Shown piece after piece: positions 9,089-25,244 of a stretch of DNA of 27,071 bases. Below the pieces are notes generated by a model. The model was not told where the DNA came from, made no database searches, and was given only the letters and a program-made list of their open reading frames with translations. The stretch comes from a virus: IMG/VR virus record IMGVR_UViG_3300044825_002854, positions 1 to 27,071 of that record; one strand, written 5' to 3'. Every line of letters begins with the position of its first letter. The stretch's first letter is position 1. The position numbers and the translations under genes are program-made.

Positions 9089-10072
9089 ATGAACTATTTA
9101 ACGAATTACTATAAAAATTTATCAGAACAACTTCAAGAAAGAGTTAACCATCTTTCAAGTTTATTAGAATCCGTTACGGTAAATACTGGACCAATAGATT
9201 GGAACCATGAAAGAGAAGTCAGACATCTTCGTTCTATCACTGATATGACTTCAGAAATAGATCAAACATTATCAGCAGATATGCAAAAGATCCAAAGAGA
9301 TATTAGAGCCGCTGACTTTAAAGAAGCAGGATTGGTTCCTCCGCATGAACAAGCAACAGGTAGAATGCGGTTGGGTGCATGGTCTCCCTCATCAAGTGAT
9401 TTGGAAGAATTGGAAAAAATGGGAGTTGTAGATGCAAAAAATTATACAGTAGATGAATGGGGAGTTTTGCATAGACCCGGCCCACTTCCCTCAGAAGCAG
9501 AACGTAGAGCTACTGCTATAAAAAGACAGGAGACAGCCGGCATAGGAGGAGGGCTTATAGGTACAAATACTCCTGAAACAAAACAATTTCGTTCTGATGC
9601 CCTTCGTGCTTATTATAATTCTCCTAGATCAGCAAAATATTCTGGAAGGCCAGAAAATTTGTCCATTGGTGCTAGAATATTTCCTGATGAAACCGGACAG
9701 CAAATTATTCCACCGCCACAAACTCCGGGCACGCCTCCAGGATCGCTGCGCACGCCTCTCAAAGCAGCAGGAAAAGCAGCATTAAAATCTGTACCACTAA
9801 TCGGAACATTGGCATCCGTTGCTGCCATTGCAGATAGAGCACAAGCAGGAGACTATACAGGTGCTGCATTGGAAGCAGGATCCGAGATTGCAGATTGGGT
9901 TCCCGGAATTGGAACTGCAACATCTTTGGGAATTCAAGGATATTTGGCAGCAAGAGATGCAGGGGAAACAGATGAGAAAGCACCAACAGATGAGAAAGCA
10001 AAAAGAGAAGTTGACGCTGCAATAAAAGCTGGATCACCATCCAAAGTACGAGTAACTGGTCCAAAATTTTAA
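9089..10072 (+). CDS. Low-complexity, probably virion-associated protein
   Basis: Unrecognised 327-aa protein. Residues 1-30 (MNYLTNYYKNLSEQLQERVN...) form a short coiled coil sharing a residue pattern with the start of the 814-aa protein at 13056, and contain several LxE triplets (11-13, 15-17, 25-27) of the kind cut by T4 prohead protease. The middle is proline/glycine-rich. Residues about 225-290 are alanine/glycine-rich and weakly hydrophobic (SVPLIGTLASVAAIADRAQA, WVPGIGTATSLGIQGYLAA), reminiscent of membrane-active or ejected virion proteins. The late-type promoter supports a structural role. The function is a guess. Confidence 0.8.
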   Translation: MNYLTNYYKNLSEQLQERVNHLSSLLESVTVNTGPIDWNHEREVRHLRSITDMTSEIDQTLSADMQKIQRDIRAADFKEAGLVPPHEQATGRMRLGAWSPSSSDLEELEKMGVVDAKNYTVDEWGVLHRPGPLPSEAERRATAIKRQETAGIGGGLIGTNTPETKQFRSDALRAYYNSPRSAKYSGRPENLSIGARIFPDETGQQIIPPPQTPGTPPGSLRTPLKAAGKAALKSVPLIGTLASVAAIADRAQAGDYTGAALEAGSEIADWVPGIGTATSLGIQGYLAARDAGETDEKAPTDEKAKREVDAAIKAGSPSKVRVTGPKF

Positions 10073-10077
10073 TTTAA

Positions 10078-10085
10078 GATAAATA
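10078..10085 (+). promoter_or_regulatory. T4-type late promoter element GATAAATA for a hairpin RNA
   Basis: GATAAATA followed by TTTTT. The expected start at about 10091 coincides with the first paired base of a long hairpin. No reading frame starts within 100 nt. Confidence 0.45.
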
Positions 10086-10090
10086 TTTTT

Positions 10091-10173
10091 GCCAAAGGAT
10101 GTTGGATACCACATTTTCTCTTGGGTCTTCGAAGTACCACACAACAGAAAATTTAGGTCCTCATCCTTTGCGC
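10091..10173 (+). ncRNA. Candidate small structured RNA (long imperfect hairpin)
   Basis: The gap between the genes at 9089 and 10198 can fold end to end. CAAAGGATG (10093-10101) pairs with CATCCTTTG (10162-10170). GGA and CC (10104-10110) pair with GG and TCC (10156-10160). ATTTTCT (10113-10119) pairs with AGAAAAT (10146-10152). The apical part contains GGGTCTTCGAAGTACC. It fits no tRNA or riboswitch class that I recognise. It may be an independent small RNA or a structured leader of the resolvase gene. Confidence 0.45.
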
Positions 10174-10177
10174 GAGG

Positions 10178-10185
10178 TATAAATA
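10178..10185 (+). promoter_or_regulatory. Perfect T4 late promoter element TATAAATA inside a palindrome
   Basis: TATAAATA is an exact match to the T4 late consensus and is the centre of the palindrome AGGTATAAATACCT (10175-10188). It lies 12 nt before the preferred resolvase start at 10198 and 3 nt before an alternative ATG at 10189. The symmetry could allow an operator function. Confidence 0.55.
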
Positions 10186-10197
10186 CCTATGTTCTAT

Positions 10198-10737
10198 ATG
10201 CTTGTAGGTGTTGACTATTCAATAACTTGCCCGTGCTTATGTCTATTTGACGAGCGCAAAGAATTCAAATTCTCAAACTGTTTTTTCTATTATCTGACAA
10301 ACACTAAAAAATTTGCAGATAAAATTTTGCCCAATATCAATGGTGAAAGTTTTCAGGAATATGTGGCAGATGTTGACCGTTTTGACAGCATATCCGATTG
10401 GGCATCAAATTTATGTATTGGGGCTTCTGATGTTGCCATAGAAGGTTATTCTTACGGTTCAAAAGGCAAAATTTTTAATCTTGCTGAGAATATGGGTATC
10501 TTTAAGCATAAGCTCTATAAGGCCGGGGTTCCCGTGACCATCATAGAGCCGTCCAAGGCAAAGAAACTCGCCACAGGGAAAGGTAACGCCGATAAACAGG
10601 CAATGTATAAAGCCTTCTGCCAAGAAACAAATACAGATTTGGTCTTTACTTTTAATCAAAAAAGTTTAACAAATCCTGTGACGGATATTGTGGACAGTTA
10701 TTATATTTTAAAATCTTTGCTGGCTACCAAAAATTAA
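10198..10737 (+). CDS. RuvC-like Holliday junction resolvase (RNase H fold)
   Basis: Probable structure-specific endonuclease that trims branched phage DNA before packaging; T4 uses the unrelated gp49 for this. It has 179 aa from the ATG at 10198 (an ATG at 10189 adds three residues but lies too close to the promoter). The RuvC acidic set is visible: Asp6 in VGVDYS, Glu82 in VAIEGYSYG, and Asp163/Asp166 in TDIVDSYYI, the last pair with the DxxD spacing of RuvC. GKGNADKQAMYKAF (127-140) matches the helix carrying the conserved lysine. The stop codon overlaps that of the convergent minus-strand gene in a shared TTAA. Confidence 0.85.
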   Translation: MLVGVDYSITCPCLCLFDERKEFKFSNCFFYYLTNTKKFADKILPNINGESFQEYVADVDRFDSISDWASNLCIGASDVAIEGYSYGSKGKIFNLAENMGIFKHKLYKAGVPVTIIEPSKAKKLATGKGNADKQAMYKAFCQETNTDLVFTFNQKSLTNPVTDIVDSYYILKSLLATKN

Positions 10738-11039
10738 CGGACGTAGCGGACAGCGGATCCCTTGCCAGCATTGTCTAGCCGGTCATGGAATCTCTTTGGA
10801 ACTTGGCCAGATCCCTTGATTCTTGAAATAACTTCATTCCATGCACTTCCACAAACTTTGGTGGGAGTCAAAGTTGCATCAAAGGCAATTGAGTTTCTTT
10901 GGGCACCCCAATTTTTGGCAACCTTCTTTTTCCCACAGTTTGGGCATTTTTCCTTTGTGGGTTGATCGTTTTCACTCATTTTCAAAAAAACTTCAAATTC
11001 ATGTTTACAGGCACCGCATTCGAATGAATAATTAGGCAT
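10734..11039 (-). CDS. FmdB-type zinc-ribbon protein
   Basis: A 101-aa protein with an N-terminal FmdB-like zinc ribbon: MPNYSFECGACKHEFE with Cys8 and Cys11, then CPNC with Cys32 and Cys35. The rest (residues 40-101) is basic and unlike other FmdB proteins: NWGAQRNSIAFDATLTPTKV and a tail with KRFHDRLDNAGKGSAVRYVR. Its start overlaps the stop of the upstream HNH gene by 8 bp, so the two are one minus-strand operon. FmdB domains are often found in regulators and small phage proteins; the role here is unknown. Confidence 0.85.
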   Translation of the reverse strand: MPNYSFECGACKHEFEVFLKMSENDQPTKEKCPNCGKKKVAKNWGAQRNSIAFDATLTPTKVCGSAWNEVISRIKGSGQVPKRFHDRLDNAGKGSAVRYVR

Positions 11040-11529
11040 TGTTTTTGTTCCTAAAAGTAATTAGCATGTGGTCAAACAGGAATCCGTAAGAAGGTTCCTT
11101 TGGCTTGTTTTTCAACTGCATCTTGGCTTCCTTGGGAGTTCTGTTTCCCTTGGTTGTATTGCAATCTTTGCATGATGTGACCATATTGACCCACGTGGAT
11201 CCACCGCCCTTTGATCTTGGAACTACATGGTCAACCGTTGCAGTCTTTTCACATAGATCAATTCCACAATATTGACAGACATAACTGTCTCTGCGGAAGA
11301 TGTTCTTTCTATTTGCAACTACCTTCTTGAAAGGAAGTTTGACATAATACTTGAGAATCAAAATTTTGGGAATCTTGACAATTTTGCTGACAGATACCAC
11401 TTCATAATATTCAGGAGAAGTTTCATCGATCCAAACCTTGTCTTTGGACATTAACTTAAAGGCTTTTCCAACGGTAATGATATTCAGCGGTGTATTGTCT
11501 TGATTGAGCAAGAGAACCTGCTTAGTCAT
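11032..11529 (-). CDS. HNH endonuclease
   Basis: A 165-aa protein. The ATG at 11529 is preferred over one at 11571 because it follows a late promoter element (CATAAATA) and a ribosome site (AAAGG), and gives a typical start MTKQVLLLNQDNTPLNI. The HNH core is complete: YVCQYCG (Cys85, Cys88), TVDHVVPRSKGGG (Asp100, His101), WVNMV (Asn115) and CKDCN (Cys120, Cys123). This is the McrA-like class common in bacteria and phages. It is co-transcribed with the FmdB protein. A packaging-related or DNA-damaging role is possible; a homing role is less likely because the codon use matches its neighbours. Confidence 0.88.
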   Translation of the reverse strand: MTKQVLLLNQDNTPLNIITVGKAFKLMSKDKVWIDETSPEYYEVVSVSKIVKIPKILILKYYVKLPFKKVVANRKNIFRRDSYVCQYCGIDLCEKTATVDHVVPRSKGGGSTWVNMVTSCKDCNTTKGNRTPKEAKMQLKNKPKEPSYGFLFDHMLITFRNKNNA

Positions 11530-11539
11530 ACCTTTTAAG

Positions 11540-11547
11540 TATTTATG
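11540..11547 (-). promoter_or_regulatory. Late promoter element CATAAATA, minus strand
   Basis: Reads CATAAATA on the minus strand, followed by CTTAAAAGGT and the ATG at 11529. It lies back to back with the plus-strand element at 11552, forming a compact divergent late promoter pair. Confidence 0.5.
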
Positions 11548-11551
11548 AAAA

Positions 11552-11559
11552 TCTAAATA
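11552..11559 (+). promoter_or_regulatory. Late promoter element TCTAAATA
   Basis: TCTAAATA ends 10 nt before the ATG at 11570 of the 494-aa protein. Confidence 0.5.
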
Positions 11560-11569
11560 TTTTACAGCC

Positions 11570-13054
11570 ATGGATAATAATAAAGATAGAAAATTTTATT
11601 GGGAAGTCAAGGATTTTATGACCAAAAAACATGAACCAAAGACCTCAGCTCCTTCATCAAGTCTAAAGGATAGCATAAAAAACGTACTAGAGCAAAATAA
11701 TTCTTATGTACAAAAAACATTTGATAAGGCTTCGGAGGCTGTGAATATTGGTTCAAACTTTATTGCTAAAAATGTCGATGCTCAAAGAGGATACAACACA
11801 AATTGTGCAGCATACACAAAGAATAAAAATGTAAATGACTTTAGCGTTGGAAAAATGATCACCGAACAACAAGCCACATCTTTTGGTCAATCCAATCGTA
11901 GAGGTGGGTCTGTTGGTGGTCCCGGTGGTGCTGGTGTTATGGGTGGCGGTGGTGGTGGTGGATCATGGCGTGAAAGAAATCCAGAAGCATATGCACGAAA
12001 TGTTGCTGCTCAACAAGAACTAGAAGCAAAAAGAGCACAAAATTTGGCAGCAAGTCGCAGACGCAGAGCAGAAGATGAAGCTGCCGATTATAACACAACA
12101 CAACCACAAGGACCAACTCCAACTGGTGGAAATATAGGCAGTGAACTTGAAATGGATCCTAATGATCCAACCATGCCTTTGGATACTCCAGCCAATAGAG
12201 CAAAATTAAGAGATTTCAGACAAAACAAACAAGCAGATAAAGTTGCCTCAAGACTTCAAGAACTTTCTGGAAAGGATCCAAGTTCATTAACTGCTTCCGA
12301 GACAGCTGAAATAAGTTTGTTGAAATCAATGACACAAGGTTCAGTTGCAACTGCGGGTCTTGAAGGAAAAGTAAAAGAAAGATTGGGTGCTGCGTATTAC
12401 GGAGGACAGGCAATAAAAGGACCCAATGAAGTTATTCTCAAAACATTAGGTCGTTCTCAGGCTGATCTTGTGGCTCAAACACAAACTAAAGTAAAATCAG
12501 AAGCAGAAGCCAAAGCAGCAGAACAAAAAGCATATGAGCAACAACTTGCTGCCGAACGCTATGCAAAAATGCAAGATCAAATAATCCAAGGTACAAATAT
12601 GACCTATGGACAATTTAAGGCTCAATATAACCGAGATTATGATGCAAGAAATCCAGAAGATTCTGCAATGCTAGTTCGTGCTGCCAGCAATCGTTCTGCA
12701 TTCCGTGTTTCTCCGACTGCCCGTGCTTTGGATCAAACCACTGTAGATTTCAACAGATCATACAGAGACATCAATGCAGCAAATGCAGCCCGTCAAGGAC
12801 AACTTGATCGCAGAGTTGACGCTGCTCAGAGAGATCTTGACCAGTTCAATGCTGATCGCCAAGGAACCGTTCAGAGAGAAATTCAAGCAATCCAGACACC
12901 TGAATTCATTCAAGGTGTTGCCCAAGACATGGCTCGCGCTGCTGGCGGTCAAATGAGAAGAACCAATATGATTCCTCCTCCTCTTCTTCAAAGACCAACT
13001 GCATCAAGAGCTTCATCTGCCTCTCAAACAGCCCCAAAAACTTACAGGATCTAA
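11570..13054 (+). CDS. Large low-complexity protein, probably virion-associated
   Basis: Unrecognised 494-aa protein. In order: a lysine-rich N-terminus; a glycine run at about 112-132 (RGGSVGGPGGAGVMGGGGGGGS); an Arg/Glu/Ala-rich coiled-coil stretch (about 135-175); an acidic proline linker; helical segments at 210-350 rich in Ala, Gln, Lys and Glu (KSEAEAKAAEQKAYEQQLAA); and a C-terminal helix rich in Arg/Asp/Gln ending in a Pro/Ser/Ala tail. The composition suggests an elongated, flexible structural or head-internal protein. It is followed after 1 nt by the 814-aa gene, so the two are probably one transcription unit behind the late element at 11552. Confidence 0.8.
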   Translation: MDNNKDRKFYWEVKDFMTKKHEPKTSAPSSSLKDSIKNVLEQNNSYVQKTFDKASEAVNIGSNFIAKNVDAQRGYNTNCAAYTKNKNVNDFSVGKMITEQQATSFGQSNRRGGSVGGPGGAGVMGGGGGGGSWRERNPEAYARNVAAQQELEAKRAQNLAASRRRRAEDEAADYNTTQPQGPTPTGGNIGSELEMDPNDPTMPLDTPANRAKLRDFRQNKQADKVASRLQELSGKDPSSLTASETAEISLLKSMTQGSVATAGLEGKVKERLGAAYYGGQAIKGPNEVILKTLGRSQADLVAQTQTKVKSEAEAKAAEQKAYEQQLAAERYAKMQDQIIQGTNMTYGQFKAQYNRDYDARNPEDSAMLVRAASNRSAFRVSPTARALDQTTVDFNRSYRDINAANAARQGQLDRRVDAAQRDLDQFNADRQGTVQREIQAIQTPEFIQGVAQDMARAAGGQMRRTNMIPPPLLQRPTASRASSASQTAPKTYRI

Positions 13055-13055
13055 T

Positions 13056-15500: not shown

Positions 15501-15514
15501 TTCTGTGTTATAAT
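15487..15514 (+). promoter_or_regulatory. Possible sigma70-type promoter before the exonuclease gene
   Basis: TTGCTC (15487-15492), 16-nt spacer, TATAAT (15509-15514), giving a start near 15521 and a leader of about 12 nt before the GTG at 15533. A second candidate, TTGACA-17 nt-TAAATA at 15441-15469, lies in the end of the previous gene. Confidence 0.4.
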
Positions 15515-15532
15515 TACATAAAGTCGTATCTA

Positions 15533-16207
15533 GTGAATATAAAAACATTTACACACAAACCTATTGACATTTCTTGGAAACTTGAAGAAGTAACTCATAA
15601 CGGATCACGTTTTTACAAGACTCCCGATGGCATTTTTCCAAGTGTCACCACAGTTGTTGGTTGGGAAAAACAAAAGTTTTTCAGCGAGTGGAGATCCAAG
15701 AATCCCGAGGAAAGCAAAAGAGTCACTTCACGGGGAACAAAGTTTCACAAACTTCTTGAAACTTATTTGAATAATGAAAACTTAGATTATGAAAATATGC
15801 ATTCAATGCAAAAATCATTATTTTCATTGATCAAGCCAGAAATAGACAAGATAGACAACATCATTGCTTTGGAAACTCCATTGTTTTCAAAGACAATAGG
15901 GTTGGCCGGAAGAGTCGATTGTATTGCAGAATACGACGGAAAACTCTCCATAATAGATTTCAAGGCCAGCACAAAAGAAAAACGAGAAGAGGACATCGAC
16001 AATTACTTTGCACAAGCCACTGCGTATGCACTCATGTTCCAAGAAAGAACAGGAGTAAGAATTGACAATTTTGCAATCTTAATTGCGTGTGAAGATGGTC
16101 TTCGCCAAGTCTTCAGTGGCCAGCCTCTTAAATATGTTAGACACTTATCGAATCTCATAAAACGATATAAGGAAGCCCACGATGTACCAAGAACAGAAGA
16201 CACTTGA
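15533..16207 (+). CDS. PD-(D/E)XK exonuclease, RecB/Cas4/MGME1-like
   Basis: A 224-aa protein starting at GTG, with only a weak AAAG ribosome site. The nuclease core is clear: PSVTTVVGWEK (36-46), SRGTKFHKLLE (66-76) with the conserved GxxxH, Glu114 before LFSKTIGLAGRVD (Arg127, Asp129), the catalytic SIIDFKAS (Asp142, Lys144), and the QATAYALM helix (Gln161, Tyr165) of RecB-like nucleases. Such single-strand exonucleases are common in T4-like marine phages and probably process recombination or repair ends. It overlaps the next gene by 26 bp. Confidence 0.88.
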   Translation: MNIKTFTHKPIDISWKLEEVTHNGSRFYKTPDGIFPSVTTVVGWEKQKFFSEWRSKNPEESKRVTSRGTKFHKLLETYLNNENLDYENMHSMQKSLFSLIKPEIDKIDNIIALETPLFSKTIGLAGRVDCIAEYDGKLSIIDFKASTKEKREEDIDNYFAQATAYALMFQERTGVRIDNFAILIACEDGLRQVFSGQPLKYVRHLSNLIKRYKEAHDVPRTEDT

Positions 16208-16778
16208 GGATCAGGTAAACACCAAAGGCACAAAACTTTGGATGCAGATGAATGATAACTCCAAGGCCGCAAAATTGCGAGCCTTGTTTGTTCAAAAGAA
16301 CGGAGGATTTTTCCTCCAAGAAGGAAGATATTGGATTTGGAAGAGCCCAATAGAAGAACATAATGGATATTGGTTGAAGAGAGCAGATACCGGGGAAAAA
16401 GTATTCTTCACCAACATGACTGAATTTGGTGCAAAGCATGGACTTTCTTGCGTAAAAATTTGTGAGTTGATGAATGGAAAGAGAAAGACATACAAGGGTT
16501 GGACAGCAGTTGAAATTCGTGCAGTCCAGAAACAAGAAGGCCCAAAGAAAAGAATTAAAAAACCAAAGAAGAAAAAGATTCAAATAACCATGTCTGCGAC
16601 TTTTGTGGACATACGTACAAATCAACAAATACAAGTTGCAAACATATCCCAATTTGCCAAAGACAACAACTTAGACTATGCAAATTTGAGAAAATTGGCC
16701 ATAGGCAAGGCAAAGACATATAAACATCTAAAATTATACAATCCTTTTGAGGTTCCCGGCGAATCTACGGAAGGCTAA
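16182..16778 (+). CDS. DNA-binding protein with two NUMOD1/IENR1-like helix-turn-helix repeats
   Basis: A 198-aa protein with two related modules. Repeat 1 (about 63-112) has YWLKRADTGEKVFFTNMTEF and GLSCVKICELMNGKRKTYKGW. Repeat 2 (about 140-187) has TFVDIRTNQQIQVANISQFA and NLDYANLRKLAIGKAKTYKHL. The pattern (tag on a surface feature, 'F', small helix, 'L..G..KTYKGW') is that of the intron-encoded nuclease repeat found in homing enzymes. A lysine-rich linker (PKKRIKKPKKKK) joins them. No nuclease domain is present. It overlaps the exonuclease gene and may guide it or regulate transcription. Confidence 0.75.
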   Translation: MYQEQKTLEDQVNTKGTKLWMQMNDNSKAAKLRALFVQKNGGFFLQEGRYWIWKSPIEEHNGYWLKRADTGEKVFFTNMTEFGAKHGLSCVKICELMNGKRKTYKGWTAVEIRAVQKQEGPKKRIKKPKKKKIQITMSATFVDIRTNQQIQVANISQFAKDNNLDYANLRKLAIGKAKTYKHLKLYNPFEVPGESTEG

Positions 16779-16781: not shown

Positions 16782-16788
16782 ATTTGAG

Positions 16789-19155
16789 ATGAACTTCATT
16801 ACTCTTTTACAAAAATTACAAGAAGCAGCCACACCCAAAACAGGCCAATCCATGCAAAAAGACCGTGCCAAAAGCACTGGCACCGATGCAAAGGCCAAGG
16901 ATGCTGCCAGAAAGCGTGCAGAACGATCACGCCAGATTCCCCGTGACCGAAAGCCAAAGCAGGAACTGGTAAAGGAAGTAATTGCTGTAAAAACCAGAGA
17001 TGGTCGTATTCAATTAATATTCAAAGATTCGTTTAATGAATCGGTTCACGAAAGAGTCAGCAAGGATACAATGACTCTTGAAGAAGCCCAACAGATCTCA
17101 AAAGATCCAAAATTTGAACAAACCAGAGCCTCCAAACTTCTTTTTGGTGATGTGAAGGAAAAAGAGCCTGCTGAGAAAAAGGGTGGAGCCAAAAAAGAAG
17201 AAAAGAAAGAAGGTGGCAAACCTTCTGCAAAGGGAAAAGCAGATAAAAAAGAAGATAATAAGCCAAAGGCAAAAAGACTTTCCAAAGAACAGATCTTTCA
17301 AGCCATGAGCCAGATGAGTGCAGATCAGTTGGCAACAATGCCACTTGATATGCGCCAAGAATACTTCAAAATGACACGAAAGCCCCCGACAAACGTGGAC
17401 TTCGACAATGTTTCGTTTGAAACGCTTTCGGTAAAGTATGCAATCAGCCCAATCTCAAGTTTGCCTTACAATCAGCAAGTATTGAATGCGTTGATGTTTT
17501 TGGCAAAGATTAAGGCTGGTGCATCTGACCAAGAGATGCAGACATATAGTGCAGTCGCACCCAGTGCCACAGAGTTCACAAGAACTGCTTTCAACACAGC
17601 CCGAAAGATTCTGTCGCAAATTGGCGAAGAATGCATTCAAAATCTTGTATCCACTGTAGAGACAGGTGGACAGCCGATTAATGCAGAAGGCTCGGTTGAC
17701 ATGGAATGTGGAAATTATAAATTTAAGGTTTCTGCTGGTGGCGAAATGTCCTTGTCAACCACGCAGTTTGATCAATCAAACAAGTCTTTCCGAGGACTGA
17801 TCGGAAATGCTTTGATGCAGGCATTGTCAAATCCAAAGACAATTCAATCGGATCCAAAACTTGCCGAACTCATGCAAACTGGTTCACAAGAAGCACAAAA
17901 ATTTGCAACCACTTTGATTCCAGATGACATGGTTCAGCAATTGATGCAGGATCCAGAGATGGCAAAGCAACTTCAATCAATGAAGTTGAAAGATTCTAGT
18001 GGAAATGATATTGGGCCTGTCATTGACGAAGAGGGAAATTTAAATCCACTTGCATCACTGAGCAATTACCAAAATCTTTGGCTTGAAAGAAGTAAGAGTA
18101 TATTGGCAGGAAACAAGTCTTCAGCCAAGTCTCCATTCAGAGCAATCGTTGCCTCAAGTATTCTGAAGAATTATCTTCGTGGAGATGGAATCGTTGATCC
18201 AAAGGCGGCTCCGAATCATTTGGTTACCGTCAACGGTGTATTTCCATTGTCCGATCAATACTTTGATGCTATTTCAACTCAAGCAGATATTGATGTAAAG
18301 CCTGCAAAGGATGTAATCAATTCATCAAACATAGGATCGCTAAAGGCTTCTTCTGCAGAAGCAATGAAAAAGTATAGAGTGGTCGTTGAAGCCAAGGAAG
18401 AAAAAGAAACCAAGAAGCCATCTTTGAAACAGGCTTTGGTCAACATCAAAGACATTGATCCGATTCAATTGATGGTTTCTAACATAGTTGACAATAGAGA
18501 TTTCCTTTTCAATGTAAGTCTATTGCCAGGATTTAGTCCCAAAGACTTGAACGCCGTTGAATACAATTATGTCACCATTGGCAAGAAAACAATAAAAATT
18601 CCTGTAATTACTCATGAAAAAATAGCGCAGCAGATGATGCAGGAATCTGCTCTCTTGATAAATGATTGTCTTATAGAAGCACTGACAAATAATTTTGTTC
18701 TTCGTGCTTTGAGAAATGTAGAACTTCTCACGGATTCAGAACAAGCATTGTTTGAAACCAATCCTTCAGTACTCCTTGAATCCTATGAAAATATCACTCC
18801 TCTCAAGGAAATTTACAAATCCATAATGGAAAAAATTGAAATGGATCCTTCAATTCTTGAAGCATTCATTCTTCAACTTGAGGAAGCCGAAAGAGATTAC
18901 AAGAAGGAATACAAGAATTATCACGGCAAGCCAAAGCAAAGAAAAGAAAGAGCAGCCCGAACTGCTGCCCGTGAATTGATGATCAAAAAGGGGCGAGCCA
19001 AGCGTGGGGATGGGAAAGACATTGACCACAAGAAGCCTCTTCGCAGTGGTGGTTCCAAAGGCATAAATAATCTACGTGTCAGAGATAAATCTTCCAATAG
19101 ATCCGACAATGGACACAAAAAAGGTGAAAAACAGAAAAAAGGCAGCTGGAAATGA
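16789..19155 (+). CDS. Large virion-type protein with N-terminal LxE signal and C-terminal HNH motif
   Basis: A 788-aa protein. It begins MNFITLLQKLQEAATP: a short amphipathic helix ending in LQE|A (10-12), like the head-targeting peptides of T4 internal proteins that gp21 cuts after (L/I)xE. Residues 20-165 are very basic and lysine-rich (EKKGGAKKEEKKEGGKPSAK). The centre (170-690) is a globular helical region without recognised domains. The C-terminus carries an HNH-like nuclease motif: GDGKDIDHKKPLRSGG (DxDH at 744-747), NNLRV (Asn760/761) and SSNRS (Asn770, Arg771). This suggests a DNA-bound protein packaged in the head. The stop overlaps the next start by 4 bp. Confidence 0.85.
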   Translation: MNFITLLQKLQEAATPKTGQSMQKDRAKSTGTDAKAKDAARKRAERSRQIPRDRKPKQELVKEVIAVKTRDGRIQLIFKDSFNESVHERVSKDTMTLEEAQQISKDPKFEQTRASKLLFGDVKEKEPAEKKGGAKKEEKKEGGKPSAKGKADKKEDNKPKAKRLSKEQIFQAMSQMSADQLATMPLDMRQEYFKMTRKPPTNVDFDNVSFETLSVKYAISPISSLPYNQQVLNALMFLAKIKAGASDQEMQTYSAVAPSATEFTRTAFNTARKILSQIGEECIQNLVSTVETGGQPINAEGSVDMECGNYKFKVSAGGEMSLSTTQFDQSNKSFRGLIGNALMQALSNPKTIQSDPKLAELMQTGSQEAQKFATTLIPDDMVQQLMQDPEMAKQLQSMKLKDSSGNDIGPVIDEEGNLNPLASLSNYQNLWLERSKSILAGNKSSAKSPFRAIVASSILKNYLRGDGIVDPKAAPNHLVTVNGVFPLSDQYFDAISTQADIDVKPAKDVINSSNIGSLKASSAEAMKKYRVVVEAKEEKETKKPSLKQALVNIKDIDPIQLMVSNIVDNRDFLFNVSLLPGFSPKDLNAVEYNYVTIGKKTIKIPVITHEKIAQQMMQESALLINDCLIEALTNNFVLRALRNVELLTDSEQALFETNPSVLLESYENITPLKEIYKSIMEKIEMDPSILEAFILQLEEAERDYKKEYKNYHGKPKQRKERAARTAARELMIKKGRAKRGDGKDIDHKKPLRSGGSKGINNLRVRDKSSNRSDNGHKKGEKQKKGSWK

Positions 19156-20303
19156 TATCAAGTCACATAAAGTTGATTACTGAAAAAGTTTATTCAGATT
19201 CCGGTTTGGGAAAATGGTTCAATCGGGAATCTGCTGGTGGTGGTCCAGGCTGGGATCGCTATAACACCAAAGGCGAACGAGTTGGCAAATGCGGTGATGC
19301 CAAGGAAGGTGAAGCCTATGCTGCTTGCCTCAGCCGTCAAAAGGCAGAAAAACTTGGAAAGAAAAAGATTGGGAGTTTTGTACGCAGAAAGCGTGCAGCC
19401 CAACACAAGGCAGGAAGAGGAAAGAAAGGTGAAGGCAAGAGTGGAAAGAAGCCAATCTTTGTCAAGACTGGAGTAACTGAAGTAAAGGAATGCTTTGATT
19501 ACTTTTTGGTTGAAAATTCAAACCATGTAATTCCATTGACATTTTCTCCCATCGAAGCACATGAACTTCTTCCTTTTGATTTGGTCATCAATGAAAATGG
19601 TGACTTCTTGAATGTAGACATGGTTGAAATCACAGAAGATGGAAAGTATGCAGTCACTTTCAGTGATGAATATGGTTGTGAACTAAGGGAATCTTTCACG
19701 CCTGACACAATCATGGGTTTTGTTGATGTTACCGAAGGACAAGAATACAATGAATTTGACGAGATGCTTGAACTTCATGAAGAAGAAAAGAAGAAGGTCA
19801 AACTCAACAAGATCATGCGTGGAGATGTCAAGAAATACAAAGTTTATGTAAAGAACGACAAAGGAAATGTAGTTAAGGTAAACTTTGGTGATCCCAACAT
19901 GGAAATCAAGAGAGATGATCCTGCACGGAGAAAGAACTTCCGTGCTCGCCATAATTGCGCCAATCCCGGTCCTCGCTGGAAGGCTCGTTATTGGGCCTGC
20001 AAGACTTGGAGTTCCCAATCTGTGTCATCCATGTTGAAGGAATCGGAAGTTCTTGAAGAAGCCAAGAACAAGCCAAAGAATCCAAAGAAATGGTCATCAT
20101 GTATTGCACAAGCAAAACAAAAATTTGATGTCTATCCTAGCGCCTACGCCAATGCTTGGGCTGCAAAATGCTACAAAGGTAAGGGTGGAAAGTGGAAAAA
20201 ATTGACAGAAGAGATTGCTGAATATGCTTTGAATACAATGAAGAACAAAATTTACAATCCAGATCTTTTTGGGTTGATAAAGAATAGAAACAGTAAAAAT
20301 TAA
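19152..20303 (+). CDS. Multi-module cysteine-containing phage protein, probably virion-associated
   Basis: A 383-aa protein starting MISSHIKLITEKVYSD, with an ITE triplet at 9-11 like a prohead-protease site. Three modules that I recognise as recurring in phage and large-virus proteins of unknown function follow: about 20-62 (GKWFNRESAGGGPGWDRYNT, with Cys47 and Cys59), about 226-288 (VKVNFGDPNMEIKRDDPARR then FRARHNC and YWACKTW), and about 308-350 (NPKKWSSCIAQAKQKFDVYP then AYANAWAAKCYKGKGGKW). The middle (105-215) is acidic and beta-like. The ATGA overlap with the 788-aa gene means the two are co-translated. No enzymatic residues can be named. Confidence 0.83.
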   Translation: MISSHIKLITEKVYSDSGLGKWFNRESAGGGPGWDRYNTKGERVGKCGDAKEGEAYAACLSRQKAEKLGKKKIGSFVRRKRAAQHKAGRGKKGEGKSGKKPIFVKTGVTEVKECFDYFLVENSNHVIPLTFSPIEAHELLPFDLVINENGDFLNVDMVEITEDGKYAVTFSDEYGCELRESFTPDTIMGFVDVTEGQEYNEFDEMLELHEEEKKKVKLNKIMRGDVKKYKVYVKNDKGNVVKVNFGDPNMEIKRDDPARRKNFRARHNCANPGPRWKARYWACKTWSSQSVSSMLKESEVLEEAKNKPKNPKKWSSCIAQAKQKFDVYPSAYANAWAAKCYKGKGGKWKKLTEEIAEYALNTMKNKIYNPDLFGLIKNRNSKN

Positions 20304-20311
20304 TCTAAATA
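20304..20311 (+). promoter_or_regulatory. Late promoter element TCTAAATA
   Basis: TCTAAATA immediately follows the previous stop codon and ends 11 nt before the ATG at 20323. A purine-rich AAAAGAGAAG lies between. Confidence 0.5.
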
Positions 20312-20322
20312 AAAGAGAAGCC

Positions 20323-20877
20323 ATGAAATTTAAACAATTACTTTCAAAAATCAACACATTGGTAGAAAATGCTCCCGAGCACACTTTCGGTGGTGGTCTC
20401 TATATTGGAGATCCCCAAGGAGCAGCAAAAGTTTCAGCTCTTTCCGACAAAGGAACTTTCAATCTAAAACTTCCTCGTTCTATTGATGCAATCAATGCAT
20501 TGCTTCATACATTCTCAAATAGAGATTACATCGACCCAGATGGTCTCACAGGCATCGTAAAGCAGAAGTTGAATCACTTCGGTCTTGACTTCTCTTGCAG
20601 TGGCAAAGTTGGAGATGGTGAAAATGTATATGAACTAGTCCAATACGGAAGCCCACAACTCGGTGTTTATGGCCAAAATCCATACGATGACATCAACAAG
20701 ACAGGCTTCAAGCAAGGTGATGGAATCAAGGAAAAACTTGGCCACTCATTGAACCTAGTAGTATCCGTCCAAAAGATGCCCAATGGCCTTCGCAAAGTCG
20801 GAATGATGATTGTTCCAGCCGCTTCTTCTTCGTACAATAGTGACATGGCGGGTTCTGACTGTGGATGCAAACACTAA
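20323..20877 (+). CDS. Hypothetical protein with N-terminal LxE signal
   Basis: A 184-aa protein starting MKFKQLLSKINTLVENAPE: an amphipathic helix with LVE|N at 13-15, similar in form to the 788-aa protein start. The body is globular (AINALLHTFSNRDYIDPDGL, FGLDFSCSGKVGDGENVYEL) and ends in a cysteine cluster SDCGCKH that could bind metal. Its own late element and ribosome site (GAGAAG) point to late expression. No family is recognised. Confidence 0.82.
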   Translation: MKFKQLLSKINTLVENAPEHTFGGGLYIGDPQGAAKVSALSDKGTFNLKLPRSIDAINALLHTFSNRDYIDPDGLTGIVKQKLNHFGLDFSCSGKVGDGENVYELVQYGSPQLGVYGQNPYDDINKTGFKQGDGIKEKLGHSLNLVVSVQKMPNGLRKVGMMIVPAASSSYNSDMAGSDCGCKH

Positions 20878-20884
20878 CTTATTG

Positions 20885-21283
20885 ATGCAAGAAAAAATAA
20901 ACTCTCTGACAGAAGAAAACTTTGTAGAATTCTGTCAGAGATATTATTTTAATCCAGAATGTTCTGGAAAAAATGAGTTTGTAGATGATCTCAAGCGGGT
21001 CAAGTACATAAAAAGATTATTGCAGAAGATTCATAAGCACAAGACCTTAAAGTCAATCCGTGAACGACTCATAATAAACCATTTAATAATTTTAAGAAAT
21101 GTATTCGGGGACCAAAATTGTTCCCGAATTTTATTTTTCAAGTTAGAACCAAGACTACATTCATATCTTAAATCTTTCACTGTATTTTTGGAATTTAACA
21201 TCAAAAATTCACCGGAAGTAAGATATACGGATTTGAACACAGATCCCAGAGTTGACAGAAAACTGTCTCAAACAGAAAACTAA
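20885..21283 (+). CDS. Conserved phage protein of unknown function, 132 aa
   Basis: The ATG at 20885 is preferred; the open frame reaches back to 20810, but that part overlaps the previous gene. Features: NFVEFCQRYYFNPECSGKNE, FVDDLKRVKYIKRLLQKIHK, then ERLIINHLIILRNVFG and RILFFKLEPRLHSYLKSF. I recall this pattern of basic helices followed by a hydrophobic LIINH-type helix from other T4-like marine phage genomes, where it is also uncharacterised. It ends 10 nt before the next gene, and a late element sits across its stop codon. Confidence 0.83.
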   Translation: MQEKINSLTEENFVEFCQRYYFNPECSGKNEFVDDLKRVKYIKRLLQKIHKHKTLKSIRERLIINHLIILRNVFGDQNCSRILFFKLEPRLHSYLKSFTVFLEFNIKNSPEVRYTDLNTDPRVDRKLSQTEN

Positions 21284-21286
21284 ATA
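21279..21286 (+). promoter_or_regulatory. Late promoter element ACTAAATA
   Basis: ACTAAATA overlaps the stop codon of the 132-aa gene and ends 7 nt before the ATG at 21294. Confidence 0.5.
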
Positions 21287-21293
21287 TTTCTAG

Positions 21294-23039
21294 ATGCGCC
21301 CCGGTAATCTAGTCCCTTCCTTTTACTTCTATAAGTTGGCTGATGCCCTCAGCAGCCCCTATACGGCTTTAACAGCGTATTCTGCTGGACTGATCGATGC
21401 ACAAGGAAATGTTCTAAAGCCAGAGAGCAGCATTGATCCATTTGAATATCTGGTCATAAAATTAAAGAAAATCTTTGATCAATTACCCTATGGAATGACA
21501 AGAGCAAGACTTGGAAATTATCTGTCAACTCTTCAAATGTTTTCTGAAGAAGTAGAAAATTTTGACATCACCCAAGAACAGTTTCATTGCTTGGTGGAAG
21601 GATTTGTAACTCAGCATTCAAATGGTGAACTGAGTTATTTGGAACTGCTTGAAGACATGGCAACAGGAGGTGGTGCTGGTGCTTTGGGTGTTCCTGCACA
21701 GGGTGGAAACATCAATCAAGGTGGTATCTCTGGATTTGATCCACCACTTGGAATGCCTATTCAAAGAAGAAAGCAACCAAAGTATTTTGACAATTGTGAA
21801 ATATTTGAAGTCTGCCCAGAAGAGTTTTTGCAATTGAAAGCAGCAAGAACTTGGAAAGAAGTTCCAGAAGGCGACACTAAGAATTATTTGCAAAGATTTC
21901 AACGAAGAAACAAGGGCGGAAAGATTGCAGTCAAGTCATTGAATCCATTGAGTGCAGAACATGAATTGCATTGGATAACATATCCTGCAAAAAACTTTAT
22001 GGAGGATGTTGATCTGTCTTTTTTTTCTGAATTATTAACTGAAACAAATGATGTTGATCCGGATCAATTTGATAGTCCTGATGCAGGATCAAAAGCTGAT
22101 TCAGGTGAAGTTGCATTGGCGCAAGTAAGCAAACAAATGGGAGATGCGGAGAAAGCAAGAAGACAAAAAAAAGGACGCCCCACTCCTCCAAGAACTTTTC
22201 CCGATGATCCTCACAAAGAATTTGTAGGACACATGAAACATATGATGTTTCAATATTTAGATCCTAACTTAAAGGAAGGACAAAAAACTGAAATTGAAGG
22301 AAGAATGCTTTTTCATGCAAAAGCATATCATATGCTGAAAGATAATCATGATGAATTACAAAAATATATTAATAGATCTCATTCTATAATTCATTCCTCT
22401 ACAAGTGGTAATGATTATGAACCAAAAAAAGAAGGCGATTCTCTTCTTGTACGACAGGGTAGTGATGGAATTACAACCCACATTTTAGAAATAAAAGGAA
22501 AAGGTGGAAATTTAAAAGACAGCATTACTCATGAACAAAAAGATCATCTTATAAAAAATTATGGGCATTTGATGCCAACTTGGGTGCAAGGATCAACACC
22601 ACATCCTCTTTTAAAACAAAGATTCGTATTTCCTACACATCAAAATAAAAAATTGGAAGAAGAATTCAAAGCTGCCTTGGATGCCGAAGAAGCAGATGCA
22701 ATCAAAGAACAAAGAGTTTCAATGAAACATCAAATTCTTTCCAACTTGAAAGCACCACCATCACATTTAGTAAGAAAAATAGGCAAAAGATTTTATTATT
22801 TTGGAAATCCAACAGCAGCAGATCCTAAACTAAAATTAGGATGGTCTGGCGCAGATAAAAACAAAGAGGCACCAGAAAGAAGGGCTTCTCTTCGGATGGA
22901 ACGTAATTTGGGCCTGCAAAATACCAAATTTAATGGAGAATTGGTAAAAATAACCCAAGAAGAATATTCTCCTTGGGTATCTTCGCTTGATGATGCTTCA
23001 AAAACTCAATTTGAAGCACTTTTCAAACAACATCATTAA
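21294..23039 (+). CDS. Virion-type protein, 581 aa, unknown function
   Basis: Residues 1-115 form a compact region with YFYKLADALSSPYTALTAYS, LIDAQGNVLKPESSIDPFEY and LVIKLKKIFDQLPYGMTRAR, a pattern I associate with structural genes of T4-like marine phages. Residues 122-150 are a glycine-rich linker. The centre is basic and aromatic (PKYFDNCEIFEVCPEEFLQL). The C-terminal half (290-581) is lysine/histidine-rich. It includes THILEIKGKGG after GDSLLV, which loosely resembles a PD-(D/E)XK core but lacks the other motifs. Its 3' end overlaps the convergent minus-strand gene by 4 bp. Function unknown. Confidence 0.82.
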   Translation: MRPGNLVPSFYFYKLADALSSPYTALTAYSAGLIDAQGNVLKPESSIDPFEYLVIKLKKIFDQLPYGMTRARLGNYLSTLQMFSEEVENFDITQEQFHCLVEGFVTQHSNGELSYLELLEDMATGGGAGALGVPAQGGNINQGGISGFDPPLGMPIQRRKQPKYFDNCEIFEVCPEEFLQLKAARTWKEVPEGDTKNYLQRFQRRNKGGKIAVKSLNPLSAEHELHWITYPAKNFMEDVDLSFFSELLTETNDVDPDQFDSPDAGSKADSGEVALAQVSKQMGDAEKARRQKKGRPTPPRTFPDDPHKEFVGHMKHMMFQYLDPNLKEGQKTEIEGRMLFHAKAYHMLKDNHDELQKYINRSHSIIHSSTSGNDYEPKKEGDSLLVRQGSDGITTHILEIKGKGGNLKDSITHEQKDHLIKNYGHLMPTWVQGSTPHPLLKQRFVFPTHQNKKLEEEFKAALDAEEADAIKEQRVSMKHQILSNLKAPPSHLVRKIGKRFYYFGNPTAADPKLKLGWSGADKNKEAPERRASLRMERNLGLQNTKFNGELVKITQEEYSPWVSSLDDASKTQFEALFKQHH

Positions 23040-23257
23040 TCCTGAATAAAGTTTTTGTTCTTGCAGCACTTTGGCTTTGTGCAAGAGTTTCTTTCTCTGG
23101 CTTCGTTGATGATCTTGGTATCTGCATCTTCCCAACCAGTCTTGTATTCTTTCCAATAAGGATCAATAGAAAAGACTGCTTGATTTGGAAGTTCACCACC
23201 ACTCATGCGACAATTGAAACCTTTGTCATAACCTTCACCGGGCTTGTATGTAGTCAT
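23036..23257 (-). CDS. Small cysteine-containing protein, 73 aa
   Basis: Starts 2 nt after the upstream gene's stop, with ribosome site AAAGGA. It is aromatic and polar (FSIDPYWKEYKTGWEDAD), with Cys16, Cys59 and a CC pair at 64-65 that may bind a metal. It is the last gene of the minus-strand operon. Not recognised. Confidence 0.7.
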   Translation of the reverse strand: MTTYKPGEGYDKGFNCRMSGGELPNQAVFSIDPYWKEYKTGWEDADTKIINEARERNSCTKPKCCKNKNFIQD

Positions 23258-23259
23258 AA

Positions 23260-23676
23260 TTAATCCTTTTGATTTGGGGGAATTGGAATCATTTGAATTT
23301 GATTGATTACCTTATCCAAGGCCTTCACATGGGCAAATTGCTCAGTGATGGCGAGATAACCACGAATCTCAATCAACCTCATGTATTCATCATGAGTAAA
23401 TTGCACGACAGTAGACTTTCTGTAAGTTTTTTTTCCATTCTTTCTATTATGTTGTTTTGAATGTTCTTTCATGGCCTCATTTAGATTGAGGTAATTTGCA
23501 AGATCATCCATTCCATCGCCTTTGTTCATGTTTTCAAACATCTTGCGAAATTGTTCGGAATATTTTGGATTGTAGTTAAATTTCCAAAAACTAAATGGAA
23601 AGTAATTATTTGGATTGTTGTCCTCATAATCTCCATTTTGCCATTGATTAAAATCGTTATAGTCAGAGTTATTCAT
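23260..23676 (-). CDS. Hypothetical protein, 138 aa
   Basis: Strong ribosome site (TAAAGGAAACC then ATG). The N-terminus is rich in Asn, Asp, Phe, Tyr and Trp (NDFNQWQNGDYEDNNPNNYF) and probably disordered. A basic middle (EHSKQHNRKNGKKTYRKS) precedes a helical C-terminal domain (FTHDEYMRLIEIRGYLAITE) ending in MIPIPPNQKD. No known domain. It is the third-from-last gene of the minus-strand early-type operon by map order. Confidence 0.75.
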   Translation of the reverse strand: MNNSDYNDFNQWQNGDYEDNNPNNYFPFSFWKFNYNPKYSEQFRKMFENMNKGDGMDDLANYLNLNEAMKEHSKQHNRKNGKKTYRKSTVVQFTHDEYMRLIEIRGYLAITEQFAHVKALDKVINQIQMIPIPPNQKD

Positions 23677-23684
23677 GGTTTCCT

Positions 23685-23981
23685 TTAGTTGACATCAAAG
23701 AACTGCTCGTACAGAACTTTTCCATGGTTGTCTGTCACGGAAAGATATCGTACATGACGAGTCAATGCGTCACTAATATTTAGACCGTCCTTTGAACCAA
23801 AGGACAGGTTTTTTATCCAAGCAGCACAACCACCCAATGAAATTCTGACCTCATTTCCATTCATGTCAGATCCATAGAAATCAAAAGTGGCTTTCTCACC
23901 ATCATAATAGGTGAAGAAACAATCAATCTTATCAAACTTCTTACGAATGTCCTCTATGGACAACTGTGTAGTATTAGCCAT
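23685..23981 (-). CDS. Hypothetical protein, 98 aa
   Basis: The start at 23981 is chosen because it overlaps the stop of the upstream 57-aa gene (ATGGCTAA), while a longer frame to 24050 would run through that gene. It is globular, mixed alpha/beta (IRKKFDKIDCFFTYYDGEKA, GNEVRISLGGCAAWIKNLSF) and likely soluble. Not recognised. Confidence 0.75.
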   Translation of the reverse strand: MANTTQLSIEDIRKKFDKIDCFFTYYDGEKATFDFYGSDMNGNEVRISLGGCAAWIKNLSFGSKDGLNISDALTRHVRYLSVTDNHGKVLYEQFFDVN

Positions 23982-24147
23982 TCGGCAATCTCTCTTGCTT
24001 GACAGACTTAGGAAGTTGGTTAATCCGGTCAAGCTCTCGGAGTGTTCCAACCTTGGCGTTCATCAGGCTAGCAGCCCTCTTACGCTTACGAAGTTCATGG
24101 CTTCTCTTGTGCTTACGATTTGTGATGCGTTGCTTTGAATTAGGCAT
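23974..24147 (-). CDS. Small very basic protein, 57 aa
   Basis: Reads MPNSKQRITNRKHKRSHELR, then KRKRAASLMNAKVGTLREL and a basic tail ending LPNG. With about 18 Lys/Arg it could bind nucleic acid or ribosomes. A near-perfect sigma70 promoter ends 6 nt before its ATG. It overlaps the next gene by 8 bp. Confidence 0.7.
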   Translation of the reverse strand: MPNSKQRITNRKHKRSHELRKRKRAASLMNAKVGTLRELDRINQLPKSVKQERLPNG

Positions 24148-24153
24148 GATAAA

Positions 24154-24182
24154 AGTATATCACTGTTCTGTGTGCTTGTCAA
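24154..24182 (-). promoter_or_regulatory. Strong sigma70 promoter, minus strand
   Basis: TTGACA (24182-24177), a 17-nt spacer and TATACT (24159-24154): one mismatch from consensus overall. The start is expected at or beside the ATG at 24147, so the mRNA would be leaderless. The -35 box and spacer lie inside the 3' end of the 48-aa gene. It drives four downstream small genes. Confidence 0.75.
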
Positions 24183-24306
24183 GTTTTTTCTTGAGTTCCA
24201 TGTTCTCTACGGCAAGTTTTCCCGCAGAAACAATCAGTTCCATGTTCACTTTTTGGAGTTCTTGGATCTTTTCCTTGAGTTTTTTGATTTCCTCTTCTTT
24301 GGGCAT
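24160..24306 (-). CDS. Small leucine-zipper-like coiled-coil protein, 48 aa
   Basis: MPKEEEIKKLKEKIQELQKV and following: heptads of Leu/Ile/Val run along almost the full length, so it should form a coiled-coil dimer. Its start lies inside the 45-aa gene in another frame, and its end carries the promoter for the next gene. Confidence 0.65.
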   Translation of the reverse strand: MPKEEEIKKLKEKIQELQKVNMELIVSAGKLAVENMELKKKLDKHTEQ

Positions 24307-24383
24307 CCAAAAATTTTCTCCCAATTTTCACAGTAAATTTTGTAGTTTACTGGCCGATATGAATCACCTTTACCTGCACTCAT
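24246..24383 (-). CDS. Small conserved phage protein (MSAGKGD type), 45 aa
   Basis: MSAGKGDSYRPVNYKIYCEN then WEKIFG. The start pattern 'M.aGKGD..RPV....Y..NW..IFG' is one I know from many unrelated phages, where it has no assigned function. After IFG the chain continues with a Lys/Arg/Ser-rich tail, read in a frame overlapping the coiled-coil gene. It is the first gene behind the minus-strand promoter at 24390, whose -10 box ends 6 nt before this ATG. Confidence 0.7.
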   Translation of the reverse strand: MSAGKGDSYRPVNYKIYCENWEKIFGCPKKRKSKNSRKRSKNSKK

Positions 24384-24389
24384 GACAAT

Positions 24390-24417
24390 AGTATATATCA
24401 AGCCAACAAAATGTCAA
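24390..24417 (-). promoter_or_regulatory. Strong sigma70 promoter, minus strand
   Basis: TTGACA (24417-24412), a 16-nt spacer and TATACT (24395-24390), ending 6 nt before the ATG at 24383, so probably leaderless. It lies back to back with the late element at 24419, so early leftward and late rightward transcription start from the same 40 bp. Confidence 0.72.
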
Positions 24418-24418
24418 A

Positions 24419-24426
24419 TCTAAATA
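24419..24426 (+). promoter_or_regulatory. Late promoter element TCTAAATA
   Basis: TCTAAATA, then ATTTT and the ATG at 24432; TAAATAATTTTATG is the same 14-nt string as at 8724 and 9078. Confidence 0.55.
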
Positions 24427-24431
24427 ATTTT

Positions 24432-25244
24432 ATGAAGAACAATAAAGGTTATTATACTTGGATTCACTCCCTAAAGCAAGCCGCAATGCAGTCTCACACC
24501 AAGGGTGCTGAGATGCTTTCTGAGGCAAGAAAAAGAGTAGAACAAGGCCCAGATCTTGATGTAAAGGCTGCAATCGATGCTGAAATTCGTGCAAGAGGTG
24601 AACGAAGAGCCTTGAGCGCTAGAGAACTGGCTGCTGCTGGTGATGCAAATGATGTTGAAACAGAGGCTCAAGAAGACGAAGATGGAGACCACATTCCAGA
24701 CATTGCTGATCCAGATTCTGCTCTTCCAACTTTCAATGTTCCAATGGTCCCAACGACAACAGAACACCCAGAACCGTGGTATAAAACCAAAGAAGAAGCA
24801 GAGGAAGCTGCAAGAGTCATGGGTGCTCATTACAGAGGTGAAACTGCCCCCGAAGAAGAAGATTTTGTTCCACCCCATGAAGAAAAACCTGCTGCAGCAG
24901 GTGGTGCTTGGTCAAAGCCAGCGACATTTAAAGAAAGCGTCAATAAAAAGATAAAGAAAATTATTTCCGAGATGCGTGGTGAGGAACCTATCAGAGATTT
25001 GCCAGTAATGGGTGAAAGAGGAACCTTGAAAACTGGACAATCGGGAGAATCTGCAGGGCTTTTGGGTCAAAGACTCCCAACGGATTTACTTAATAATATC
25101 AACCCAACTCAAAGAAATCCACAGGGAATTATCCGGCATCTGATTCAAGTTGTTGAAAATCCCGAAGAACACCCCCCACACCATTTTAAAGTTGCAAATG
25201 AAATATTAAGTACTATGGGTCAATTTTATAGAAGAGGCAGTTAA
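24432..25244 (+). CDS. Acidic low-complexity protein with DxDGDxIPD motif, probably virion-associated
   Basis: 270 aa from the ATG at 24432. An in-frame ATG at 24411 would place the start upstream of the promoter. The N-terminal helix MKNNKGYYTWIHSLKQAAMQ runs to LSE|A at 29-31, a possible prohead-protease site. Residues 80-96 (QEDEDGDHIPDIADPDS) match the DxDGDxxPDxxD calcium-binding repeat of thrombospondin type 3. An acidic, proline-rich middle follows, then a basic helix (FKESVNKKIKKIISEMRGEE) and a compact C-terminus. Function unknown. It ends overlapping the minus-strand gene at 25241. Confidence 0.8.
   Translation: MKNNKGYYTWIHSLKQAAMQSHTKGAEMLSEARKRVEQGPDLDVKAAIDAEIRARGERRALSARELAAAGDANDVETEAQEDEDGDHIPDIADPDSALPTFNVPMVPTTTEHPEPWYKTKEEAEEAARVMGAHYRGETAPEEEDFVPPHEEKPAAAGGAWSKPATFKESVNKKIKKIISEMRGEEPIRDLPVMGERGTLKTGQSGESAGLLGQRLPTDLLNNINPTQRNPQGIIRHLIQVVENPEEHPPHHFKVANEILSTMGQFYRRGS

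Follow-up and report, generated by a model that had tools for sequence, protein, structure and literature searches.

The window analysed here is the whole of IMG/VR virus record IMGVR_UViG_3300044825_002854, a 27,071-base fragment of a T4-like aquatic phage, and it carries an island of genes whose products begin with shared N-terminal leaders containing (L/I)xE triplets. These leaders are very likely head-targeting propeptides cut after (L/I)xE. In phage T4 the internal head proteins IPI, IPII, IPIII, and Alt carry a capsid-targeting sequence (CTS) that is cut by gp21, and cleavage after L/I-x-E is the established rule of the T4 head protease (PMC9026906). The initial annotation of this DNA had proposed such propeptides, cut by a gp21-type protease, for six proteins; the core of that proposal is well supported by gp21 in a relative, the LxE of gp23, the sharing of leaders, and their enrichment in a published cyanophage virion proteome.

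Leaders ending in (L/I)xE

All six starts proposed previously (9089, 13056, 16789, 19152, 20323, and 24432) were confirmed at those places, as was the related start with several LxE triplets that the proteins at 9089 and 13056 share. The protein at 11570, which bears another shared leader, had been overlooked, as had further leader types, the modular exchange of leaders, and the LxE conserved where internal domains meet. The window contains leaders of types B (9089, 13056), C (24432), D (11570), and E (16789, 20323) and a short leader at 19152, as follows (the arrow marks the predicted cut):

9089..9169, + strand: type B leader of the 327-residue protein, MNYLTNYYKNLSEQLQERVNHLSSLLE, with triplets LSE, LQE, and LLE; the same leader stands on 17 unrelated body clusters
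9089..10072, + strand: 327-residue cargo candidate; its hydrophobic Gly/Ala-rich C-terminal region is also found in phage peptidase/endolysin families
11570..11620, + strand: type D leader of the 494-residue protein, MDNNKDRKFYWEVKDFM, common to unrelated bodies in proteins of 96-590 residues
13056..13139, + strand: type B leader of the 814-residue protein, MDQLTNLYRNRAIQLQNKVRLLEQLLSE
16789..16824, + strand: type E leader of the 788-residue protein, MNFITLLQKLQE; predicted cut LQE↓A after residue 12 (triplet 10-12)
19152..19184, + strand: leader of the 383-residue protein, MISSHIKLITE; predicted cut ITE↓K after residue 11 (triplet 9-11)
20323..20367, + strand: type E leader of the 184-residue protein, MKFKQLLSKINTLVE; predicted cut LVE↓N after residue 15 (triplet 13-15)
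24432..24524, + strand: type C leader of the protein ending at 25244, MKNNKGYYTWIHSLKQAAMQSHTKGAEMLSE↓A (...KGAEMLSE↓A), triplet 29-31 counted from the ATG at 24432

The proteins at 16789, 19152, and 20323 have N-terminal leaders of about 10-20 residues ending in (L/I)xE, and the type B and C leaders are longer, at 23-31 residues. The longest open reading frame (ORF) of the type C protein begins at 24411; we took the start at the ATG at 24432 because it is directly preceded by CTAAATAATTTT, as elsewhere here, and most relatives start there. The C-terminal region of the 327-residue protein matches phrog_23178 (1.7e-13) and phrog_34252 (6.6e-10). The proteins had been described as basic and of low complexity, which holds for only some of them: the isoelectric point (pI) is 6.0 for the protein at 9089, 5.4 for that at 24411, and 7.7 for that at 20323, and the 788-residue protein at 16789 is conserved, with a fold that is predicted in part with confidence.

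A bare (L/I)xE in a single protein means little because 16 of 62 T4 genes (26%), all taken from a region that encodes no internal head proteins, show one at residues 6-22, and counts of LxE alone were rejected as evidence on this ground. Among internal 17-mers of the window proteins, 16% contain the triplet. Conservation was surveyed over the window families with at least five distinct N-termini. The triplet is kept in 14/15 (16789), 9/9 (19152), and 10/10 (20323) distinct orthologous leaders, that is, in 33 of 34, while leader length and sequence vary. Shuffling gives expectations of 3.4, 2.1, and 3.2, respectively, and the observed value was reached by 0 of 5000 shuffles, a test that is optimistic because orthologues share ancestry and are not independent and shuffling ignores descent, so that the significance figures are upper limits. 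The sole exception in the 16789 family ends in VNE; every leader of this family closes with xxE and has a hydrophobic P3, and the predicted cut shifts between about residue 11 and residue 19 (variants MNFKELLKLTE, MNFITLLQKLQE, MNFKNLITKITKNSLIME, and MNFKTLLQQIVTESVLNE). In the 19152 family the triplet precedes K-V-(Y/F) in 9/9 distinct leaders. Most other window genes have no comparable N-terminal LxE conservation. Judged from the sequences, it is the conservation of (L/I)xE, not its mere presence, that exceeds chance.

The sharing of leaders between unrelated bodies is, on the same footing, evidence independent of conservation. When 1198 proteins of the window and its relatives were clustered separately by N-terminus and by body, type B (MNYLTNYYKNLSEQLQ.., as at 9089 and 13056) and the T4-like type A (MxxFKQFLxE) each preceded 17 body clusters, and type F (MKxxNPVLxxILExRY) preceded about seven. 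Leaders are interchangeable between unrelated proteins, and residues 206-317 of the 9089 protein recur behind a different leader, MLRFKQFLxE (MLRFKQFLIE), in the relatives L023, L026, and L028. Type C (..YYSWIHSLNxAAM...MLSEA) keeps LxE in 14/14 distinct leaders and type B in 19/20, the lone exception resembling a chance pattern match. About 18-20 leader-bearing genes are present in one 126-kb relative. About ten leader-bearing bodies were scanned against Pfam and PHROG, and almost all matched no family.

Several side observations concern these genes. Dockerin type I repeats, unusual for a phage head protein, occur in leader-bearing proteins of the 126-kb contig G001 at 101349-102389 and 102464-103813 (in L049; 34.0 and 31.3 bits, above the cut-off). 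At 24250-24924 of the same contig (L045 4250-4924) a lysozyme-like domain (17.8 bits, below the cut-off) is joined to the T4-type leader MKSFKQFLIE, and this protein is a candidate packaged lysozyme. C-termini of the form (G)KYSxTYRI or PKTYRI-like are found in cargo candidates with differing bodies (window 11570-13054; G001 4567, 5067, and 86917); the motif YSxTYRI was rejected as a common cargo feature, the proteins being too few. The sequence CTAAATA, usually followed by TTT, stands 12-18 nucleotides upstream of an ATG at window positions 11553, 16775, 20305, 21280, and 24420. It precedes several leader genes and the gene at 21294, has the same layout in G001, G002, and HTVC008M, and is possibly a late-expression signal. 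Classical late-promoter boxes (NATAAATA) were considered and set aside, occurring in the window only weakly above chance.

The head protease and published virions

The gp21 homologue called for by the propeptide reading was found in a relative, not in the window fragment itself. The 126-kb, 52%-identical relative G001 encodes gp21 (Peptidase_S77, 138.9 bits) next to gp20, gp22 (the scaffold), and gp23; gp21 is also present in four named T4-like phages, and close relatives of it occur in hundreds of IMG/VR loci. In 11/11 distinct gp23 sequences of the group, the propeptide end at about residue 55 reads L(T/N/V/I)E and is followed by a variable linker. Changing the P1 E to D blocks IPIII processing in T4. 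Because the window is a fragment without head genes, we infer packaging, cleavage, and gp21 processing in its own phage; ejection into the host is plausible by analogy with T4.

For the T4-like cyanophage S-CREM2, published mass spectrometry of virions reports 28 proteins that are non-structural or hypothetical (PMC10665884). A pattern derived from the T4 IPIII leader matches 4 of 27 virion-detected versus 1 of 150 undetected non-structural ORFs of this phage (p=0.002, which is not a blind-test value because the pattern was taken from the T4 leader but written after the S-CREM2 N-termini had been seen). The matches include a SAM hydrolase (MKDFDSFLEE) and a cytidylyltransferase (MKNFSSFLTE), and the APH-like kinase (ORF14, MKRFDAFLTE) fits too if the annotated start is used. 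Virions of S-SZBM1 have likewise been reported to contain a cytidylyltransferase (PMC9146016), and those of S-SCSM1 an NMNAT (PMC9602691). The passages of the three papers that deal with these virion enzymes offer possible carriage as an explanation and do not invoke a leader (PMC10665884; PMC9146016; PMC9602691). The S-CREM2 data support the presence in virions of that phage's own leader-bearing proteins.

The window encodes DNA polymerase, UvsX, and a DnaB-type helicase, as well as primase, ThyX, and ribonucleotide reductase (assigned by sequence); replication and nucleotide genes come first, then tRNAs, then the leader-gene island. Its UvsX is 58% identical to that of Methylophilales phage Melnitz and 57% identical to that of cyanophage S-RIM2, and these identities place the window phage as T4-like, of the Kyanoviridae type. 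No DNA-level relatives of the window were found in INPHARED. A total of 42 relatives of the 788-residue protein are present in IMG/VR, almost all of them full length, with 46-98% identity; some lie on long contigs (G001, 126 kb; G002, 117 kb). Both contigs have Arg/Pro/Ala-rich ORFs unlike their remainder (G001 about 1-2000 and about 120000-126000; G002 about 25000-30000), possible assembly chimaeras. Directly before the first leader gene of the window lies a permuted transfer-messenger RNA (tmRNA) gene (8836-9022, + strand; RF04321, 51.7 bits; tag ANIKAAPMRMAA), and a tmRNA gene is likewise present in the relatives L001, L002, and L012 (72.5 bits).

Internal LxE seams and candidate cargo modules

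Further (L/I)xE-like sites were found inside the 788- and 383-residue proteins, where the head protease might cut again:

18382..18390, + strand: possible site VVE534↓A of the 788-residue protein; weaker, P3 mostly V, hydrophobic-x-E in 22/22 rows; predicted local distance difference test score (pLDDT) <50 at 525-543
18772..18780, + strand: predicted site LLE664↓S of the 788-residue protein; hydrophobic-x-E in 22/22 distinct rows (P3: 21 L, 1 I)
18877..18885, + strand: predicted site LEE699↓A (or E698) of the 788-residue protein; conserved E, hydrophobic P3 in 95% of rows
18886..19152, + strand: HNH-like basic C-terminal module, residues 700-788 of the 788-residue protein; phrog_4590 2.2e-20; PF01844 15.6 bits, below the cut-off
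19506..19514, + strand: predicted seam LVE121↓N of the 383-residue protein; kept in 94% of 17 distinct rows
19773..19781, + strand: predicted seam LHE210↓E of the 383-residue protein, before the HVA1/DUF5754-like module; 100% of 17 rows
20052..20060, + strand: predicted seam LEE303↓A of the 383-residue protein, before the DUF5872-like module; (L/I/M)xE kept, linker length variable
20202..20210, + strand: predicted seam LTE353↓E of the 383-residue protein, after the DUF5872-like module; 100% of 17 rows

The stretch around LLE664 has a flanking column conservation of 0.27, the lowest among the sites found. LEE699 directly precedes the HNH-like module, with pLDDT <50 at 701-713, and the fragment 699-788 has a pI of 10.5. 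This module stands alone elsewhere, in a 94-residue homologue in PQ867848 and in stand-alone HNHc proteins of 73-100 residues. The AlphaFold model of the 788-residue protein has a mean pLDDT of 69 and low confidence at 1-31, 525-543, and 701-713, as expected of flexible regions. The protein has no PDB match; in BFVD it matches two 276-residue cyanophage proteins (best E 1e-7) and stand-alone HNHc proteins. The sites of the 383-residue protein border a basic N-terminal module, an acidic middle domain, and the HVA1/DUF5754-like and DUF5872-like modules. The last two lie at window 19818-20210; DUF5754 and DUF5872 are also named for a eukaryotic algal virus, Chrysochromulina parva virus (PMC12085832), and giant viruses may thus have these small domains too. 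One orthologue (L017, 12373-14247) has an intein-like insertion in its DUF5872-like module (FDVYP/C...GN/SAYANAW; Pfam Intein_splicing 21.6 bits, below the cut-off).

The same modules occur in other contexts in relatives. Over 56 distinct contexts from IMG/VR, HVA1 is directly preceded by (L/I/V)xE in 39/43 leader-bearing versus 5/13 leaderless proteins (p=3e-4), and on inspection the exceptions were mostly misclassified by the leader pattern. Two phages, CRP-901 of Roseobacter and Aegir of Pelagibacter, have it as a stand-alone protein that begins with Met and then A(T/K)YxG, precisely at the cut position predicted for longer proteins. Among the large contigs, all of which may be fragments, two with leader-type proteins encode both gp21 and gp23, and those of the leaderless type encode neither. 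A cleavage motif [VL]xA served by a different protease was tried for the leaderless proteins and rejected, no S77 or S78 protease being found in those contigs; the linkers before their HVA1 were left as ordinary linkers. In marine relatives (LIVMF)xE stands before a zeta-toxin-like kinase module (PF06414) in 45/45 distinct contexts; the module follows a short leader in 37 of these and lies within a longer ORF in 8. Both HTVC008M and Melnitz EXVC044M carry this kinase module, HTVC008M together with HVA1, and GLYDP comes directly after the LxE of the HTVC008M kinase. That LxE precedes the module both where it has a gene of its own and where it is part of a longer protein suggests polyprotein cargo that is cut within the prohead. 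Marine relatives also have ORFs of 940-1265 residues that string together several modules (cytidylyltransferase-like, nucleotidyltransferase-like, PAP2, DUF5824, kinase, and HVA1) with leader-like FExYLxE stretches between them. One 1265-residue ORF (in L203) joins cytidylyltransferase-like, DUF5824, zeta-toxin-like kinase, and HVA1 modules, and several of these modules are separate genes in HTVC008M. The same modules are single leader-bearing genes in some phages and one ORF in others.

A model and its rivals

We propose that the island consists of late cargo genes encoding six or seven proteins, each with an exchangeable leader. The leader would be a capsid-targeting propeptide that binds the scaffold during prohead formation, so that the protein is enclosed; a gp21-type S77 protease would cut after (L/I)xE and free the mature protein in the head, and the mature cargo would probably enter the cell together with the DNA. 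The 788- and 383-residue proteins probably have further gp21 sites at their domain seams, by which small basic modules (HNH-like, HVA1/DUF5754-like, and DUF5872-like) would be released separately, and we infer that these modules then act separately. The wider polyprotein reading, in which a single leader carries several enzymes, together with small basic domains, into the prohead, gp21 cuts at the (L/I)xE seams, and the effectors are injected together, is a tentative one, with slightly less than an even chance of being right.

Several observations weigh against the model. Besides the common ancestry of the orthologues and the frequency of N-terminal LxE in unrelated T4 genes described above, a PD-(D/E)XK nuclease and the small ORF at 20885, both probably non-head, also keep an N-terminal LxE; 5 of 17 type D leaders have no LxE within residues 15-46 (12 have one); no gp21 is present in the 27-kb fragment; at some seams P3 is V, M, or F, which the stricter T4 rule does not include; and the model of the 383-residue protein is too poor (pLDDT 42) to confirm domain borders. 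Prohead targeting may also be correct with only the N-terminal site being cut, the internal LxE belonging to ordinary amphipathic helices and the long proteins staying whole, like T4 Alt apart from its ends. This is a substantial possibility, though one we place below even chances: T4 internal proteins mostly lose just the N-terminal propeptide (PMC9026906), helices rich in E and L often contain LxE (as the internal 17-mers of the window attest), and the body of the 788-residue protein is modelled as largely folded, whereas LLE664 is kept in 22/22 rows despite its poorly conserved flanks, and the same modules elsewhere are separate leader-bearing genes with LxE at the same border.

The length of the type B and D leaders (17 to 30 residues), unlike the 10-residue CTS of T4, and the absence of LxE from several type D leaders would fit a docking tag for some other target (e.g., baseplate, chaperone, or membrane), in which LxE is merely part of a helix. 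We regard this as improbable, given that LxE is kept while leader length changes, that types B, C, and E share genomes with T4-like type A leaders, and that the gp23 and gp21 of the same phages fit the LxE rule. Least credible of all is that short amphipathic (L/I)xE N-termini were simply picked by eye in an E-rich proteome; the 16 of 62 control T4 genes with a triplet speak for such a chance effect, and conservation across divergent leaders, leader swapping between bodies, and the link with published virion proteins speak strongly against it.

In the open-access literature we did not find multiple leader types or seam-cut cargo polyproteins described for T4-like phages. Leader plus LxE seam would be a sequence rule that places many hypothetical proteins of abundant aquatic T4-like phages in the head and predicts their exact mature N-termini, and a large set of phage genes that have lacked an explanation would thereby gain a function. 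If the polyprotein reading is true, the head protease doubles as a cargo-releasing enzyme, a role that to our knowledge is known in no other phage.

The type A leader MKSFKQFLIE closely resembles the T4 leader. As in T4 (PMC9026906), a short N-terminal amphipathic leader ending in (L/I)xE stands on several unrelated cargos, and the gene set of S77 protease, scaffold, and gp23 is present, here in relatives. T4 has one leader type and four such genes; here there are at least six types, about 18-20 leader-bearing genes in the 126-kb relative, bodies of up to 815 residues, and apparent internal cleavage seams. In phiKZ and SPN3US (PMC5694885), many head-internal ejection proteins are processed after E by a gp21-like protease, as is predicted here; their motif is SxE or AxE, which the window leaders do not have, and several of their propeptides exceed 100 residues, whereas ours end in LxE or IxE and have 11-31 residues. 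The polyvalent proteins (Iyer et al., 2017; PMC5512222) are likewise multi-domain proteins predicted to be packaged and injected, and PHROG and weak Pfam matches point to several modules here. Their processing is credited to a built-in metallopeptidase, common but not universal; a domain search found no peptidase domain in any cargo candidate of the window, and the seams fit the head protease. The virion-found SAM hydrolase, APH-like kinase, and cytidylyltransferase of S-CREM2 carry T4-type leaders; S-CREM2 belongs to another clade than the window phage, and leaders are unmentioned in the passages of its paper considered here (PMC10665884). Relative to the known capsid-targeting system of T4, the new elements are the multiplicity of exchangeable leader types and the candidate seam-cut cargo.

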